A DNA stretch of 47,162 bases from a virus. Location: positions 1 to 47,162 of the IMG/VR virus record IMGVR_UViG_3300031933_000083. The stretch is one strand, 5' to 3'. Position numbers and translations under genes: made by a program. The notes beneath the pieces are model-generated. The model made no database searches. It saw nothing but the letters and a program-made list of their open reading frames with translations, and was not told the origin of the DNA. Numbering within the stretch: position 1 is the stretch's first letter; each line of letters opens with the position of its first letter. Positions 13,231-45,397 of the stretch are shown here, in pieces.

Positions 13231-14154
13231 TCATTTCTCCTCTGGACGGTAAATAAATTCACTTCCAGCACATTGCATGATGTGTCGGATGAATACTAGG
13301 TTACGTCCGTTACCAACTGGGTAACGTTTACGGTCAATAACCTCCGGTATATTGCTAGGTTTGTCTGCCTTATAAATGTTAGACAGGATTTCCTTATGGA
13401 CAGTCGGATTATTGGACTGGTCAATCAGGTCTGCCACAGTGTCCGATCCAGCGGCTGCACTCACCAAACGCACTTCCGTTTCACCCAACATGCGGACAGG
13501 CTGCGCACGACCGGGTGTGGCAAACTTATCGAACTTCGTAAGCTTAGCCGGAATACCAAAGTGCTGAAGTTTGGCTGACGATACCCCTGACCAGTCTGAG
13601 CCGGTTTTCTCTAGCAGTATCATGTAGATACTTCCGATCAAGATATCGTTCTTTGTTGTAACCAGTCTTCCAGAGCGACCACGGTACGTGACCGGACCAA
13701 TGTGGGGAGGGTAGTGCTGTTTCAACAGCTTCACGGTTTCCACGTCACTGGCAGGGTTGTCTGTGGGTAACCAGATATAGACACCTTGTTTAACCACCGA
13801 CTCCACATGCGTCCTGGGTGTTCCTTTGTACTCAGGAGATGTCATCAGATCGAACATCTTCGGACTGATGATTTTATAGTACCCCAAAAGGTACTCCCAT
13901 GCCTGTGCAACTAGTGCTTCCGTGAACAGTGAAGACGGGACTGACTCCCCCTTCTCTGCAACAGGTGATAACCCAAACATTGTCCTCACACGTTTAGTAA
14001 CGTCTCGTGAACAGGCATTATAAAACTGCTCATAGACACATCCAAGGTTCATACGTTTGATAATGGACTCTGCATCCATTATGACGTCCGCACGGTTACC
14101 CTCAGAATCCACGGGCATGTCCTCAGTTTTCCACACCTGACAAACAACGCCTTT
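13231..14154 (-). CDS. nvRNAP beta C-terminal subunit, exon 2
   Basis: 307 codons plus stop. Translation beginning at 14154 reads KGVVCQVWKTEDMP, and further on IMDAESIIKRMNLG (the bacterial PxGVPSRMNIGQ region). This continues exactly the beta motif that breaks off at the end of exon 1, so that joining 15995 to 14154 gives GQHGNKGVV. The first Lys restored by splicing corresponds to a conserved active-site Lys (K1073 in E. coli numbering as I recall it). Unspliced RNA could start only at GTG 14136. The stop is followed after 4 nt by the beta' gene. Confidence 0.9.
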   Translation of the reverse strand, partial: KGVVCQVWKTEDMPVDSEGNRADVIMDAESIIKRMNLGCVYEQFYNACSRDVTKRVRTMFGLSPVAEKGESVPSSLFTEALVAQAWEYLLGYYKIISPKMFDLMTSPEYKGTPRTHVESVVKQGVYIWLPTDNPASDVETVKLLKQHYPPHIGPVTYRGRSGRLVTTKNDILIGSIYMILLEKTGSDWSGVSSAKLQHFGIPAKLTKFDKFATPGRAQPVRMLGETEVRLVSAAAGSDTVADLIDQSNNPTVHKEILSNIYKADKPSNIPEVIDRKRYPVGNGRNLVFIRHIMQCAGSEFIYRPEEK

Positions 14155-15994
14155 CGAATTGTCCAGACAGCTCGCTACACTGTCCCGGCTTGTCTCGGTT
14201 CCCCGAGCAGCCCGCTGTACGTTTCCGCACAGTCCAGACTATATCTTCACCCTTCTTATAAAAGTTAGGGTGCTCCACATTTCTTCCGCCAAACGCTTGC
14301 GGCTTTACAGGGCGGTGAACCCCTTAGTCGTTGAGCACATCCCATAACCCACTGATAGGTAGGTCTTAGGGACTTCGCTGCGGATTACCCCACATAACCA
14401 CCTTTTTACCTATACCGAAGTGATTAGCTTCGCCCCCATGGGGTACGTTACGTACCGGTCACTGTTTCCAGCATGGGTTGGTAGTGATTACTCAAAGGGC
14501 GTCCCCGCAATTAGAGGAGACTCACTACACCCTCTCAGGTGTAGCGAACAATTCTAAACTGTCAAATAAGTCAAACGATATCCGTCAACGTTACGTTTTC
14601 GAGCAATTGCTTTAATGACATCGTTTTTAGTTTTCAGAATATGTTGGAAATGGGCCGACGCTTTTTTGATGTTAGTGAAGAAAAGTTCCTCACCATGTTC
14701 ATTCTTAGCTATAACGCCCCTCGCGTGTCCCGTCGGGTTATCACGGAACACCGCTAATTCACGTTCAGTAAACTCCGGCCAGGGAGTTTTATCCTGAACA
14801 GTCTTAAACAGATAACCACAATATGGTCTGTTATACCCTTTTATTAATTGCATCCTTGGTGCACTTACACTTTCCAGATTCAAATCCACACCCACTTGAT
14901 TTATACTCTCGTGAACTCTTACTTCTCCAGTGAATACATTCTTCGACAGTACTTTGGTAGGTGTAGGTAATCTCCTAAGTTCGTATTCAGGGTCGGTGAC
15001 TTCCCTCCAGTTTATATCCGGGTCTTTTTTGAATAACCAACCACCAGAACAAATTTTCTGTTCCGTTTCTGTTATCCGCTGTGTAATTGTGTGGACATTA
15101 ACTCCCGTGAACCTTGATGCTTCTTGACAACTGAAAAACTTCCTCGATTCTCCTGTCAAAACATTTTTACCATAGGTTGGGATATTTTGCGTGCGCATCC
15201 CTTCCTTGAATGCGTGTTTAACATTATCTGAGTAGGAACACCATTCCAGGTTATCAATAGCGTCATTGGTTGGGTCCCCATCTTTGTGATTAACTGTTAA
15301 ACTATCCACGTTATCAGGGTACGGGATGAAAGTCAAAGCTAGTAAACGATAACGCCCAATACTGTGTGACCCGGCATCAGAATAGAGTGAAAGGGAATGA
15401 TATCCCCCCTTGACATTGGCTTTATTTTCTTTTGGTGTTTTATAAACGTATGTCGATATAGTTTTGCCCGATTTCCAATTTTTAACCTCTCCTGCTCTGT
15501 TTATCACATAGTTGTTAAAAAATGGTATATAGTAATACCCTTCCATCACCTCACATTCAATAGGTCGTTTATAACGATATCCTAAATTCGATGGGTGTAG
15601 ATTATTTTTATCTCTGTCAATGTGGAAAGGTTCTACAAGATCAAAATACTGCGGCTGTAACCGCAACTTACCGAATGTCACCAATGTTAGTAAACTGACT
15701 AGGTAAAATTTCTCACCTTGCCACAAATCTAATTTTATTACCTGATTACCATCACAGTCGTAACCAGTTGTCAGGGGACCCCTGACCAAACTAAGGATCT
15801 GGCCATCCTCAGTTATATAAACCCTTTCCTTCACATTGGGTGAAGGAACCTCAACATATTCAGTTGGTTTTATCCTATATTTCTCAAACATAATTTCTCC
15901 ATACTAAAGTTGGATATCATAATATGGAGTTGTTTAAGATTAAAGGTTTAAACCAAAACAACTTATTCATTATTTAACTTGACAGTTTAGAACC
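14155..15994 (-). ncRNA. Group I intron in nvRNAP beta gene (1,840 nt)
   Basis: Boundaries are set by the protein motif GQHGN|KGVV: 5' exon ends in T (15995), intron ends in G (14155). The 400 nt after the ORF hold group I core segments: AATTGCGGGGA (P), AATCCGCAGCGAAG (Q), TCAACGACTA (R, 14325-14334) and GAAGATATAGTC (S, 14237-14248). P1 is unusual: 15979-15997 pairs along 19 contiguous bases with 14547-14565, three of them G-U, including the expected U-G at the splice site. The endonuclease ORF lies in the loop of that stem. P10 is weak (2 bp visible). Confidence 0.88.
14554..15891 (-). CDS. Intron-encoded HNH homing endonuclease
   Basis: 445 residues, longer than usual for the family. The HNH core is VNHKDGDPTNDAIDNLEW followed by SDNVKHAF (residues about 199-228). 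An earlier segment (HIDRDKNNLHPSNLGY, near residues 90-105) looks like a degenerate second HNH-type unit. C-terminal parts resemble NUMOD-type DNA-contact repeats (KNVLTGESRKFFSCQEAS; KNVFTGEVRVHES). GGAG precedes the ATG. It lies inside the beta intron and its last codons form part of the P1 stem. It probably cleaves intronless beta alleles and spreads the intron, as shown for an intron endonuclease of phage phiPA3 that cuts a coinfecting relative. Confidence 0.92.
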   Translation of the reverse strand: MFEKYRIKPTEYVEVPSPNVKERVYITEDGQILSLVRGPLTTGYDCDGNQVIKLDLWQGEKFYLVSLLTLVTFGKLRLQPQYFDLVEPFHIDRDKNNLHPSNLGYRYKRPIECEVMEGYYYIPFFNNYVINRAGEVKNWKSGKTISTYVYKTPKENKANVKGGYHSLSLYSDAGSHSIGRYRLLALTFIPYPDNVDSLTVNHKDGDPTNDAIDNLEWCSYSDNVKHAFKEGMRTQNIPTYGKNVLTGESRKFFSCQEASRFTGVNVHTITQRITETEQKICSGGWLFKKDPDINWREVTDPEYELRRLPTPTKVLSKNVFTGEVRVHESINQVGVDLNLESVSAPRMQLIKGYNRPYCGYLFKTVQDKTPWPEFTERELAVFRDNPTGHARGVIAKNEHGEELFFTNIKKASAHFQHILKTKNDVIKAIARKRNVDGYRLTYLTV

Positions 15995-17170
15995 ATTACC
16001 ATGTTGGCCGCTTAACTTGAAACCGATGTTAGGGATAACATCGTACTCAAAGGTTACTTCAACGCGCCAGTCATCCAGTGGATTACGGCGATACGTTTTA
16101 CCCACCCTCACTTTACTGTTGTCGTGAACAAACCCTGTGGCTTCTACCAACAGTCGGTGAAACTCAGGGCTGATGCGGAGATCGTCTTTACGCTTTCTTC
16201 TCAGCTCACGATAAAAACTCAGAACCTCCGAGTAGAATTCGTGTGTTGCCGAATAATACTTCATGGTCTGTGCTTCCATCCCAACGGGTGTTGGGGGGTA
16301 TTTACCGTTATCGCTGTGATGTATGTCGATGTCAACAACACGGGCGTTTGGTATCGCGTACACCAGGCGATCGTGTGTGTAATCAGGTTCCCTCAACGCC
16401 TCTGGGGTCATTTCAACAGGACCCAGAAGATCATCGTACTTACGTAACGCAAACAAGAGTCCGTCGTCCCGGATCTTTTCACCAATGTCTGGAAATGGTT
16501 TATAGTTATCCTTGTCCCCATACAAGTTCAATGGGTAATAGTTCTTCCCCCAACTCTCGACACGACTTTCAAACCCTTTTGACTTAATCTTTTGGATGAA
16601 GTCTTCTGAGATAATGATACCATCCTCAATGACCCCTGGGATTGAACAGTACGCCATGTTGGCTTCTATACCGTAACAATAATTTCCTTGTGCGTCAACG
16701 TTGGGAGAATCAGCTACAATGGTACCGCGCGGGTAGTTGGCACCACTGGTCAGCTGTGATGTTACGTTGGAGTTGAACTTATATTTAAAACCGAAATGCT
16801 GGTGGAGTACATGGTGACGTTCCAACGTCAGCACGTCCACTTCACGCATCGGGCTCTCTGCGTTTTCATAAAACACCAGTGTAGTAGGATTTTCTTTTAT
16901 ACTACCCTGACCTACCTTAGGGCGATATTTCTCGATTAACTTAATAACGCTAGCGTTAACCGGGAACTTTTTGGAAAACGTGTACTTGCCGTATTCCGGT
17001 TCTACACCTGTAAAACAGCGGCGGGGGACTGAACCATTTATAACAAGTGCCTGTGAGATATGACCAGCAAACATCTGCATACGTGAAGACGAGTCGTTCT
17101 TCATCCAAGGGTTTGTTGCATTCACCCCCAGAAGGTCAGGATGTAACTGGTTCTCCGGTAATTTACTCAC
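15995..17170 (-). CDS. nvRNAP beta C-terminal subunit, exon 1
   Basis: 392 codons from GTG 17170 to the splice site (699 residues after joining). NPWMKNDSSSRMQMFAGHIS (20-39) corresponds to the bacterial LIPFLEHDDANRALMGANM region. NMAYCSIPGVIEDGIIISE (171-189) matches the MPWxGYNFEDSILISE segment, with Glu-Asp at 182-183. GFKLSGQHGN ends the exon. The upstream half of beta is absent and must be a separate subunit elsewhere, as in phiKZ (gp123 plus gp71-73). If unspliced, translation ends six codons into the intron (stop at 15974-15976). An early-promoter-like motif lies about 45 nt upstream. Confidence 0.92.
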
Positions 17171-27718: not shown

Positions 27719-28710
27719 CATTGTTTTTTGATTAGGTCGTTACGCTAACCGTGCATCCTAGCACTTACGTTAATCTTTTCAAGTTAACTGGACTATATCT
27801 TCAATTCCTTATCGGAACAGTTCTCCGTTTCGGGTCCACTTAGTACCCTACGTCTTTCGACTAGTCTCTGAACGTTCTTCCTAGCGTGTCTCACGACACT
27901 CCGTAGAAGCTTCGCTGCTGATTGCCTAATTCTAACAGTTTTCAAACATTCACGCTCGCCTTTTCAAGCCACGTTGTAGTCTGTTAGACTCTAAAGGGTT
28001 TCCAGCAATTAGAAGAATTTAATGATAATTTAGTTTTCCGGGTGATCACTTCTTATTTAGAAGGTGGTATTGATCACAGTTCTTCTTCGATCAAGAACCC
28101 CTTAACTATCCCAGGTTTTTTCCTATCGAAGGCGTTATACTGAACAGTTCTTACAGGAACATCTATCTTTTCAGATAATTCCTTAGCGGAATTTGCCTGT
28201 ATAACCTCACCGGTAATAGTGTTGGTCGCTTTGACCTTTTTGGATTTCAGGAGTTTTTCTGGAAGTGTATTATGGCTGGGTTTTTTCAACCCAGTAGAGT
28301 ATGCATGTTTTATATTCTCACTCCTCGTCACCCATTCTAAATTGTTTGGGTCGTTATCAACTTTTATACCGTTCTTATGGTTGGGTTCTAACTTTAAGTG
28401 TTTTTTATCGACCGGTATATCAACAAAAGCCTCTGCCACTAGTCTGTGGACTCCAATTCTTTTCTGTTTCCCTGTATTTGCATCAGTGACAGAGACCCAG
28501 TTATAACCCTCATTGCCTTCCATTAGTTTAAGATCTTTGACTTTATGGTCCCATATCCTTCTGACTCTACCGTCATTGGAAACTTCTATACCTCTGTATT
28601 TTGGTAGTTTTCTCCATTCTGTCATTACAGACACCTCATTTTCTCATATGTAAGAAAGATATACCACTACCTTCCTTTTTTTAACTAAATTATCGCGACG
28701 GCAATGCTCT
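27719..28710 (-). ncRNA. Group I intron B in beta' gene (992 nt)
   Basis: The first 14 bases (28710-28697, AGAGCATTGCCGTC) match the ligated exons. GCCGUC pairs with the 5' exon end GACGGU including the U-G at the splice site (P1), and AGAGCAUU pairs along 8 bases with the 3' exon GAUGCUCU (P10, one G-U). The core after the ORF holds AATTGCTGGAAA, AATCAGCAGCGAAG, TTCAGAGACTA and GAAGATATAGTCC, the P, Q, R and S segments of group IA-type introns. The intron ends in G. The encoded HNH endonuclease lies between P1 and the core. Confidence 0.93.
28074..28625 (-). CDS. Intron-encoded HNH homing endonuclease (NUMOD4-HNH-NUMOD1)
   Basis: 183 residues from ATG 28625 with GAGG upstream. NUMOD4-like start (EWRKLPKYRGIEVSNDGRVRR), HNH core PNHKNGIKVDNDPNNLEW followed by SENIKHAY, and a C-terminal NUMOD1-like helix-turn-helix (VIQANSAKELSEKIDVPVR). 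It is encoded within intron B. It probably cleaves beta' alleles lacking the intron near the FDG codons. Confidence 0.93.
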   Translation of the reverse strand: MTEWRKLPKYRGIEVSNDGRVRRIWDHKVKDLKLMEGNEGYNWVSVTDANTGKQKRIGVHRLVAEAFVDIPVDKKHLKLEPNHKNGIKVDNDPNNLEWVTRSENIKHAYSTGLKKPSHNTLPEKLLKSKKVKATNTITGEVIQANSAKELSEKIDVPVRTVQYNAFDRKKPGIVKGFLIEEEL

Positions 28711-28719
28711 ACCGTCAAA
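28711..28719 (-). CDS. nvRNAP beta' N-terminal subunit, 9-nt exon 2 (Phe-Asp-Gly)
   Basis: TTT GAC GGT between the two introns. Without it the spliced product would read NAD-DALNG; with it NAD-FDG-DALNG, the invariant beta' motif whose Asp residues bind the catalytic magnesium. Its last six bases pair with the internal guide of intron B, and intron A ends in G directly before it. Only one in-frame, motif-restoring solution is apparent. Confidence 0.88.
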
Positions 28720-29100
28720 CCCAATGTCCAGGTCAGTCGCTACACTGACCCCGGTGTGCTAAGACACCCGCCCACGGCTTTCCCGTGGGGGCAGACTATA
28801 TCATCTTCTCACTTACTTAAATGAGAAGTCCCCTGTTTCGGAACCGCTGGTCCCTACTCCGCGCTACCGGATAGTCGTTGAACGTTCTTCCTAGCGTATC
28901 TCCCGACACTCCGTAGAAGCTTCGCTGCTGATTACCTAATTCTAACAATTTTCAAACATTCACGCCCACTTTTTCAAGTCACGTTGTAGTTTGTTAGACT
29001 CTAAAGGATTTCCAGCAATTAAAGGGAAACTACTCTACGATCGCTCGTAGAGAGGACCTTATCTTTAATGTATTCAAAGTTTTTGTTACATTAAAGGTTG
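28720..29100 (-). ncRNA. Group I intron A in beta' gene (381 nt, no ORF)
   Basis: Compact intron after exon 1 codon GAT. The core contains AATTGCTGGAAA, AATCAGCAGCGAAG, TTCAACGACTA and GAAGATGATATAGTC. A perfect 8-bp hairpin with GCGA loop (29033-29052) and a perfect 10-bp pairing (29087-29096 with 29063-29072) lie near its 5' end. P1 is shorter than in intron B: GAU with GUC plus the 10-bp extension; P10 could be UUUG with UAAG. About 150 nt of the core are nearly identical to intron B, with one compensatory base-pair change. The 5' site is set by the protein motif. Confidence 0.87.
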
Positions 29101-30423: not shown

Positions 30424-32319
30424 TTAGCGGTTAGTACCCCAGGTACGACCGACGTGAGTAGGATTAACGAAACGCTGACCACCGTACTGCGGCTGGTTGT
30501 AGCTGAACGCTGTACCCAACTGCTGACCGTGAACGGCGTACTGTGCAGCATTGCCCTGACCACGTACGTGCTGAGCACCGAAGGTTTCAACCAGGTTACC
30601 CGGACGAACCACCAGACCAGCACGCTCACAAGCCTGAGACAGTGCAATGATGAAGTTGGGGTTAAAGGTGATGCGACGTGCAAAGCCTTTTACTTCCATC
30701 TTACCACTGTAGAGAGCCTTCATGATATTACGACGACGCTCCATGCGCATTTCCAGCGGGATCTCGCTCTGGGTGAAAGTGTTTTCCCACTCTTCAACCA
30801 TTGCTGGGTTGGATTTGCCCACCAGGTTCAGAACCGCCAGGTAATCCAGATCACGCAGGTCACGACGCTCACCGTGCTCATCGACGTAGTAACCCAGGTG
30901 GATGCGGTTACCGTCATCGTAGCAGATCGGTTCGTTTTCGAAGAACTGTTTGAACGCATTGTTAGTCAGGTTGTTGGCTGCCTGGATCAGGGAACCGTAC
31001 GCAGTGGCATCACCGTTCGCAGCGGCGATGAAGATTTGGTGAATCCAGGAGAGTTCACCCATCTCTTCGATATCCATGCTGTAGATCAGACTGTCGTTGA
31101 TCGTAGCGGATACCAGCTGCTGCAGCTGCTGAAGACCGAAAGCATCGGACTTGGTATCGATGCGTTCCGGTTTCTGGTTCGGGTCACCGGTCAGGTTGAT
31201 TTCGTAACCAACTGCGCCGATATCCCGCATGTCAACACCGTCAATGTAGCGCGGTTTGTACACACCGGCCCATGCCATGTTCTTGGCCAACAGCGCACTG
31301 GTGTGCAGCGCCAGCAGCTGAAGTTCCAGGGTTTCGGCATCGATATCCGATTCAGCGCGGGTGATCACAAAGCGTGGGTAGTAGCTCTGGGTCATCTGCG
31401 GCTGACCGTAAGCGGCCTGACCGGGCTTCTGGAAGACCAGGTCAACGTAACCGTTCACTTCAGTCATGTCGCGCTGTTGCTGAAGACCAATGGTATTGTT
31501 GGCCTGTACAGAACCGCGCAGACTGATCTTAACATCAGAACGAATCGGCAGACCCACGGAGTTGTGGATCGGTTCACCGGAGAAGTCCAGATGTGCAGTC
31601 AGCATGTCGTTCTGACCGATAGAGGACACGGAGAACGGCTCTTCCTGCACGCCCAGGTTGGCGTCCATGATGGTGTAGGTCGCATTGACTGCATTGTACG
31701 CAATCTTACGGATTGCTACGTCATCGGTAGCTTTCAGCTCGTCCGGCAATACCAGACCACCGGCGTCGAAGATTTCCAGACCGTTGATCCCGTAATGCTC
31801 ATTGATCAGGATCTGGATCTGCTCCCAGAAGCTATCCTGGTTGTAGATATCGGCAGTGACGATCTCCACTTCGCACTGCTGACCAGACAGTGAAACGTAC
31901 TGGTTGTTCAGCTTGGAACCTGAGCCTTCCACCACCAAAGTGTAGACCGTGACTTTGTCACGTTCCTGGTAGCACACCAGGATAGAAGAGAAGGCAACCG
32001 GCGCACGGTTGTTATCCAGGACCAGGAGCTGGAACGCATCCCGGTGGTTCTTCGACATATTGGCGTCGAAGGTTTCATTGAGTGCGACGAGGAATGCCTG
32101 GACATTCTCGGCGCTGGAGGCGCGAGACATGGGACGACCATGACGTGTGTTCACATCCATGATGCTACCACGCTTACGGGTCTGGCCCTGCTGGGTAGTC
32201 TGGTGCATGTTCTGCTGACTCTGTTGCTGGTTTTGGGCATTGCGCTGCTCTTCGACCTTAATACCGGCCTGCTGAAGTGCGGAGCTCATTGGACCCTGAT
32301 TACCTTTCTTTACTGACAT
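30424..32319 (-). CDS. chmA: Chimallin, phage nucleus shell protein
   Basis: 631 residues, the size I recall for chimallin of 201phi2-1 and relatives. Residues 1-65 are Gln-, Asn- and Ser-rich and disordered, a folded body follows, and the C-terminus (GQGNAAQYAVHGQQLG...YNQPQYGGQRFVN) is again flexible. ChmA forms the single-layer proteinaceous lattice that encloses replicating DNA and excludes host nucleases. Codon use is clearly more biased than in surrounding genes, as for an abundant protein. Two early-type promoters lie upstream and a terminator follows. Placement just before beta'N fits phiKZ gp54/gp55. Confidence 0.92.
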   Translation of the reverse strand: MSVKKGNQGPMSSALQQAGIKVEEQRNAQNQQQSQQNMHQTTQQGQTRKRGSIMDVNTRHGRPMSRASSAENVQAFLVALNETFDANMSKNHRDAFQLLVLDNNRAPVAFSSILVCYQERDKVTVYTLVVEGSGSKLNNQYVSLSGQQCEVEIVTADIYNQDSFWEQIQILINEHYGINGLEIFDAGGLVLPDELKATDDVAIRKIAYNAVNATYTIMDANLGVQEEPFSVSSIGQNDMLTAHLDFSGEPIHNSVGLPIRSDVKISLRGSVQANNTIGLQQQRDMTEVNGYVDLVFQKPGQAAYGQPQMTQSYYPRFVITRAESDIDAETLELQLLALHTSALLAKNMAWAGVYKPRYIDGVDMRDIGAVGYEINLTGDPNQKPERIDTKSDAFGLQQLQQLVSATINDSLIYSMDIEEMGELSWIHQIFIAAANGDATAYGSLIQAANNLTNNAFKQFFENEPICYDDGNRIHLGYYVDEHGERRDLRDLDYLAVLNLVGKSNPAMVEEWENTFTQSEIPLEMRMERRRNIMKALYSGKMEVKGFARRITFNPNFIIALSQACERAGLVVRPGNLVETFGAQHVRGQGNAAQYAVHGQQLGTAFSYNQPQYGGQRFVNPTHVGRTWGTNR

Positions 32320-44428: not shown

Positions 44429-45397
44429 TTAAAGTACAAGGTAATCGTCAGTCACGTTATCGTTCTCACTGACGATACGAAGTTTAGCCTGGCGGCCTTC
44501 GCGACGTTCAACGTAGCCGTTAACCGTTTCACCAATCTTGTCGTAGATCCCTTCCAGTCCCTCAGTGGAGATGACCAAATGGATCTGGTCATAGTCCTTG
44601 GGTTTGTTGGTCATATAGCCCACACAGCTGTATTCAGGTGTTGCTTTAACCTTGGTTTGGTCGGGGTCGTTGTAAAGGCTGGCAATGGAGATTGGGTCTT
44701 TAACCAATGACACCTGGTCCGGGTCAGTGAAAACATCCAGGAGTGCTAACTGGGCCGGTACGCCTGTACTGTAATTGAAACGTACCCAGTTGGAAATGTC
44801 TTTACTGTCCAGTTCGGTGTTCTGACGTGAACTCAGGTTAGCCAGGGTCGCGATGGCGTAGCGGATAGAGGTATCCACTTCACTACGGGGACGATCGTCA
44901 TTGTGTTCGTAATAAACGATAGCAGGAACGTCATTTCGCTCAGAGATTGCAGCGATTGATTTCAGGGTATTCAATGTGTTGGTGGCGGTGACCGTACACT
45001 CAGCCGAACCAATCAAGCAGTACACAACAGACTCACCGCGTTTGAGCAACTCTGCCAGCAAGAGTGGAGCCATGACACTCCCTGAACCACCAGACGCTGA
45101 AGAGACCACCACATTGAAGTCACCGGGTTTGTGTTCCAAAAGAATCTGTTTAATGGACTCTGAGATCTCACGGTGGTTTTCCCGACGGATTTTACCAGAA
45201 CCATCCACCCCTTTCAGAAGATAGCAATCGTCTTCTTTGAATTCGGGCTTCAGGTTGGAGCGACTGGTGTCAATGTAACTGGTTAGGATTTTAGCGCAAC
45301 CAGGTACTTCTTCGACATTATTGAAAATGGAGATACAGTTAATCCCGGCACCACCTGCACCGTAAAGACGAATTGTACCTTTATTAGCTGTTGACAT
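44429..45397 (-). CDS. phuZ: PhuZ, phage tubulin
   Basis: 322 residues. GAGGAGIN (13-20) is the tubulin/FtsZ T1 nucleotide loop and ASGGSGSV (101-108) the T4 GGTGSG-type signature. An acidic C-terminal tail (TDDYLVL) agrees with PhuZ, where it mediates longitudinal filament contacts. PhuZ builds dynamic, treadmilling filaments that centre the phage nucleus and carry capsids. The ATG follows AGGAG; a 130-nt divergent region separates it from the next plus-strand gene. Confidence 0.95.
   Translation of the reverse strand: MSTANKGTIRLYGAGGAGINCISIFNNVEEVPGCAKILTSYIDTSRSNLKPEFKEDDCYLLKGVDGSGKIRRENHREISESIKQILLEHKPGDFNVVVSSASGGSGSVMAPLLLAELLKRGESVVYCLIGSAECTVTATNTLNTLKSIAAISERNDVPAIVYYEHNDDRPRSEVDTSIRYAIATLANLSSRQNTELDSKDISNWVRFNYSTGVPAQLALLDVFTDPDQVSLVKDPISIASLYNDPDQTKVKATPEYSCVGYMTNKPKDYDQIHLVISTEGLEGIYDKIGETVNGYVERREGRQAKLRIVSENDNVTDDYLVL

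Follow-up and report, generated by a model that had tools for sequence, protein, structure and literature searches.

The gene for the nvRNAP beta subunit in the 47-kb virus record from IMG/VR analyzed here (the window) is interrupted by a predicted self-splicing, mobile group I intron at 14155-15994. As predicted from sequence, this intron is ordinary in kind and unusual in the placement of its open reading frame (ORF): an HNH endonuclease gene lies in the loop of P1 (L1), and its last codons belong to the P1 helix itself. The explanation developed below, which combines a mobile intron and an HNH gene in L1 with a long stem, a buried Shine-Dalgarno (SD) sequence and splicing in the phage nucleus as steps of the proposed mechanism, appears probable to us as a whole. 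The features on which it is built are the following.

15995 to 17170, minus strand: exon 1 of the nvRNAP beta gene (phiKZ gp71-like), from sequence and exon joining
14155 to 15994, minus strand: predicted group I intron of 1840 nt with omega-G at 14155, from Rfam and exon joining
15977 to 15997, minus strand: P1 5' strand, the last 3 exon nt (AAU, with the splice-site U15995) and the first 18 intron nt
15974 to 15976, minus strand: in-frame UAA closing the exon-1 frame just beyond the P1 5' strand, from sequence
15920 to 15929, minus strand: left arm (anti-SD) of a hairpin ahead of the endonuclease start
15897 to 15906, minus strand: right arm of this hairpin, with the SD GGAG (15900-15897)
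14554 to 15891, minus strand: predicted HNH homing endonuclease ORF of 445 aa in L1, from Pfam HNH_3, PHROG 59 and alignment
14547 to 14567, minus strand: P1 3' strand with the guide sequence, in which G14549 pairs with U15995; the endonuclease ORF ends in this strand and accounts for its first 14 nt
14525 to 14544, minus strand: P2 hairpin of 7 bp directly 3' of the guide sequence, probability 0.996 in the full pre-mRNA fold
14215 to 14520, minus strand: catalytic core P3-P9, from Rfam RF00028
13231 to 14154, minus strand: exon 2 of the nvRNAP beta gene, from sequence and exon joining

Rfam detected three group I introns in the window, at 14215-14578, 27770-28070 and 28772-29085, all on the minus strand. 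The match at 14578-14215 reached 88.3 bits with RF00028 against a gathering threshold of 50 and contains the conserved P3-P9 core. The last nucleotide of beta exon 1 is U15995 (CAT GGT AAT|GGT) and exon 2 begins with AAA GGC GTT at 14154; joining them restores HGN|KGVV in a beta subunit of 699 aa, which aligns over its full length with the phiKZ nvRNAP protein PHIKZ071 (7ogp_C, E 1e-171). The phiKZ nvRNAP reads HGG|KGV at the junction, with its intron at the identical codon boundary, and relatives without an intron read HGD|KGV (LucasX) and HGG|KGV (RVTF4) at this site. Both hallmarks of group I introns are present, namely the U-G wobble at the 5' splice site (U15995-G14549) and the omega-G at the 3' end (G14155). 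The Rfam core, together with the junction as compared with the phiKZ PDB sequence and the empty sites, thus bears out the intron that a first-pass annotation had placed here. Another phiKZ junction, HGGN|KGV with a U-A pair at the splice site, was ruled out by the deposited sequence; HGG|KGV restores the U-G. An ORF-less intron occupies the same nvRNAP beta site in PhiPA3 (L035, 53611-56904), and a stretch of it, GGATGGATATTC, resembles the end of the phiKZ ORF, of which it is perhaps a remnant.

The outer ends of the P1 strands enclose the whole 445-codon ORF, the final 14 nt of which (14567-14554), stop codon included, are part of the P1 stem. These coordinates confirm the earlier proposal of an HNH ORF lying wholly in L1 with its last codons in the stem. 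The ORF matches Pfam HNH_3 (7e-8) and PHROG 59. Its His202 is invariant and aligns with His82 of PhiPA3 gp210, a residue shown to be essential there (PMC11620839). The product is a predicted HNH homing endonuclease in which the catalytic His is kept. A single-sequence query of IMG/VR returned no close relatives of the ORF or of exon 2.

P1 is formed by 15997-15977 and 14547-14567 in 21 contiguous pairs, 17 Watson-Crick and four G-U, with U15995-G14549 at the splice site. All 19 pairs proposed previously (15979-15997 with 14547-14565) are found in this helix, including the splice-site U-G and the extension that holds the stop codon; the real helix is two pairs longer, so that its length had been slightly understated. 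The duplex has an energy of −28.6 kcal/mol, compared to −10.1 ± 2.8 after shuffling of the 5' intron strand, and none of the 2000 shuffles was as low (z −6.5). In an unconstrained fold of the full, 1961-nt pre-mRNA, 20 of the 21 pairs were present in the minimum free energy structure (MFE) with a mean probability of 0.88, and P1 coexisted with P2 and with the SD hairpin (0.99). A P10 of two pairs may also form and would displace exactly both G-U pairs adjoining the splice site. The HNH gene in the loop would hold the P1 strands 1.4 kb apart while its tail supplies part of the helix, and the long stem would help the distant strands to meet.

An ORF in L1 with its tail over P1 or the guide recurs in chimallivirus introns, and a long P1 extension is common among them, not universal. 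The 5' splice site and the guide enclose the ORF in the introns of phiKZ gp72, gp56 and gp179, PhiPA3 gp210, HPP-Temi and EL (two introns), and likewise in Vibrio MS32 and L027, 2050HW, Totoro, Kodama and fMGyn L043; the layout is shared with 14 further introns, plus more IMG/VR loci. The ORF stop in the relatives falls between 32 nt before and 28 nt after the guide G, and 58 nt before it in L048. The P1 extension outperformed shuffled sequences at p ≤ 0.035 in 11 of the 15 introns tested, with 2050HW and Vib_L048 near the significance line, and was not above chance by shuffle tests in phiKZ gp56, Vibrio MS32, Vibrio L027 and L061-L063. For new IMG/VR loci, a P1 scan without a fixed exon boundary was too noisy; with boundaries then assumed, P1 was above chance in 2/5. 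The boundary used for L069 and L071 differs from the DD| codon boundary, the distal stem being the same. The long-range P1 was present in the full-length MFE of EL L030 and absent from that of phiKZ gp72, PhiPA3 gp210 and EL gp185, where this modeling suggests that the stem may be less decisive. That the P1 extension is exclusive to ORF-bearing introns was unsupported, as a distal stem also occurs in ORF-less introns such as intron 1 of the window (CTTTAATGT/ACATTAAAG).

The phiKZ gp71-72-73 intron, which had been named for comparison, shares the nvRNAP beta codon boundary, the HNH ORF in L1 and an extended P1. Its P1, however, consists of two helices and an internal loop instead of 21 contiguous pairs and has no sequence similarity to the P1 described here; the tail of the gp72 ORF spans P1 and P2 and extends to 28 nt beyond the guide G. 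In PA7, KTN4, SL2, HUST_1 and ANB1, the phiKZ intron lacks the ORF and has a 50-nt P1 hairpin and the same flanking strands. A compensatory change from U-A to C-G was found in the P1 of Totoro and Kodama, covariation that amounts to one pair of close relatives. The PhiPA3 gp210 intron, termed a putative group I intron in PMC11620839, also encodes an HNH homing endonuclease with an essential His, its ORF being in L1 by our reading, but sits in the vRNAP beta gene at a DD| site. The guide is translated as the endonuclease C-terminus (LGPPI, TVPL, LVPSS) in L061 (3798), L062 (1530) and L063 (3468), as well as in L065 (3780), L002 (3940) and L003 (4240), which makes it a dual-coded ribozyme element. 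In L062 (228-1547) a stop at about 869 breaks the endonuclease frame, which looks like a decaying homing endonuclease.

Endonuclease genes as extensions of P1 are already known from nuclear and mitochondrial introns (PMC8395846, PMC4964425, PMC4227781). Those introns differ in residing in eukaryotic rDNA or organelle hosts and in encoding His-Cys or LAGLIDADG enzymes. For giant phages, no report of an ORF in L1 with its tail in P1 was found in the literature searched, which does not prove that none exists.

Geometry implies that a ribosome translating the ORF must open P1, and on termination it would cover the guide sequence and thereby block splicing. The exon-1 frame continues as GGT TCT AAA CTG TCA AGT TAA through all of the intron part of the P1 5' strand. 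Since ribosomes from exon 1 cross this other strand, the conflict arises from both sides: in an essential polymerase gene, two ribosome paths would cross the helix at the splice site, and the phage must therefore keep ribosomes and RNA folding apart. The hairpin between 15929-15920 and 15906-15897 buries the endonuclease SD, which has an unpaired probability of 0.00 compared to a shuffled mean of 0.30 (7/300 shuffles). Because the hairpin is compatible with P1, unspliced RNA should hardly be translated, and the burial of the SD in the precursor would be one way of avoiding the conflict. In 15/19 leaders, the MFE pairs the SD with sequence upstream of it; burial of the SD was individually significant in five of 13 introns (window, HPP-Temi, EL, 2050HW and gp179) and fell short of significance in over half of those tested.

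A second way may be provided by the phage nucleus. The window encodes chimallin at 30424-32319 (E 8e-63 to PhiPA3 PhuN; PHROG 'nuclear shell protein') and PhuZ at 44429-45397. As these occur together with the nvRNAP beta gene (E 1e-171), the phage can be classed as a chimallivirus, and the building of a nucleus is predicted from its genes. This identity, the SD hairpin and the exon-1 readthrough of the P1 strand had all been overlooked in the first-pass annotation. Chimalliviruses, which have a phage nucleus, are reported to uncouple transcription from translation (PMC12908238). With chimallin and PhuZ encoded, splicing in the nucleus could precede translation and may be finished before the transcript meets ribosomes. 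It is a tentative suggestion, of low probability, that this separation, with splicing before export, permits introns with a P1 that ribosomes enter from either side; if true, it would be a phage counterpart to the idea of a nucleus shielding splicing from ribosomes. The RNA that serves for endonuclease synthesis would then be unspliced, processed or separately initiated. A buried SD, a separate late RNA and splicing inside the phage nucleus are thus candidate routes of conflict avoidance. The question is directly testable because ORF-bearing and ORF-less introns occur naturally at one site (phiKZ versus KTN4, PA7, SL2 and ANB1).

The management of such a conflict is already known from T4. The I-TevI ORF of the T4 td intron is located in L6. 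The conflict of ribosomes with folding was demonstrated there in 2010 (Gibb and Edgell 2010, reviewed in PMC2988022), and td splicing needs delayed I-TevI translation. The td intron resembles the present one in that the 3' end of the ORF lies in structured intron RNA and a hairpin sequesters the ribosome binding site (PMC2988022), a trait represented here by the SD hairpin. It differs in its enzyme (GIY-YIG), in the loop that holds the ORF and in the late promoter, proven in T4 and unsupported here. Timing and hairpins keep ribosomes and folding apart in T4; in chimalliviruses, a compartment could serve this end. With T4-like timing, the SD hairpin would contain a late promoter, and the endonuclease would be made only from a short RNA without the anti-SD arm and the P1 5' strand, hence unable to splice. 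The late promoter core of phiKZ is TATG, with +1 at the G, and TATG lies between the hairpin arms in six of 19 leaders (window, EL, 2050HW, L061, L063 and L072); I-TevI itself uses late-promoter timing (PMC2988022). However, TATG was not enriched over shuffles in the leaders (nine occurrences, with 9.5 expected) or upstream of the window genes (12 versus 9.8), and in a transcript from the loop TATG the window SD would be unpaired only at 0.25. We regard such a timing as rather unlikely.

Of the earlier interpretation that translation and splicing exclude each other, the part that stands is that a ribosome must open P1. Exclusivity as regulation, by which the precursor would either splice or yield endonuclease depending on ribosome traffic over P1, is a rival reading that we consider improbable. 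The stop lies in P1, so that a terminating ribosome sits over the guide strand, and in most relatives the end of the ORF extends over P1 or the guide; against this, few ribosomes should start on a precursor with a buried SD, chimalliviruses reportedly uncouple transcription from translation, and overlap alone can result from insertion into a peripheral loop. Conflict avoidance is preferred to a deliberate switch.

That the real P1 is a short local helix near the 5' end and the long duplex incidental, which an apparent short P1 seen by eye in beta' intron 2 of the window (GACGGT|AGAGCATTGCCGTC) might suggest, is very improbable, as with the 5' splice site fixed at U15995 the guide G14549 scores −28.8 and the next-best guide G anywhere in the intron −16.7, and as in the ORF-less phiKZ sisters the guide adjoins P2 and stays there in the ORF-bearing version. 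The competing short P1 that had been named in advance as a refutation was thus not found for U15995.

The nvRNAP beta' gene of the window apparently contains two group I introns on the minus strand, at 28720-29100 and about 27719-28710, split by a 9-nt exon at 28711-28719 (TTT GAC GGT, F-D-G). This exon falls within the catalytic NADFDGD motif of beta' (NAD|FDG|DALNG). The second intron has an HNH ORF of 186 aa at 28074-28634, 3' of its apparent short local P1 and hence not in L1, a different placement for the same enzyme family in the same genome.
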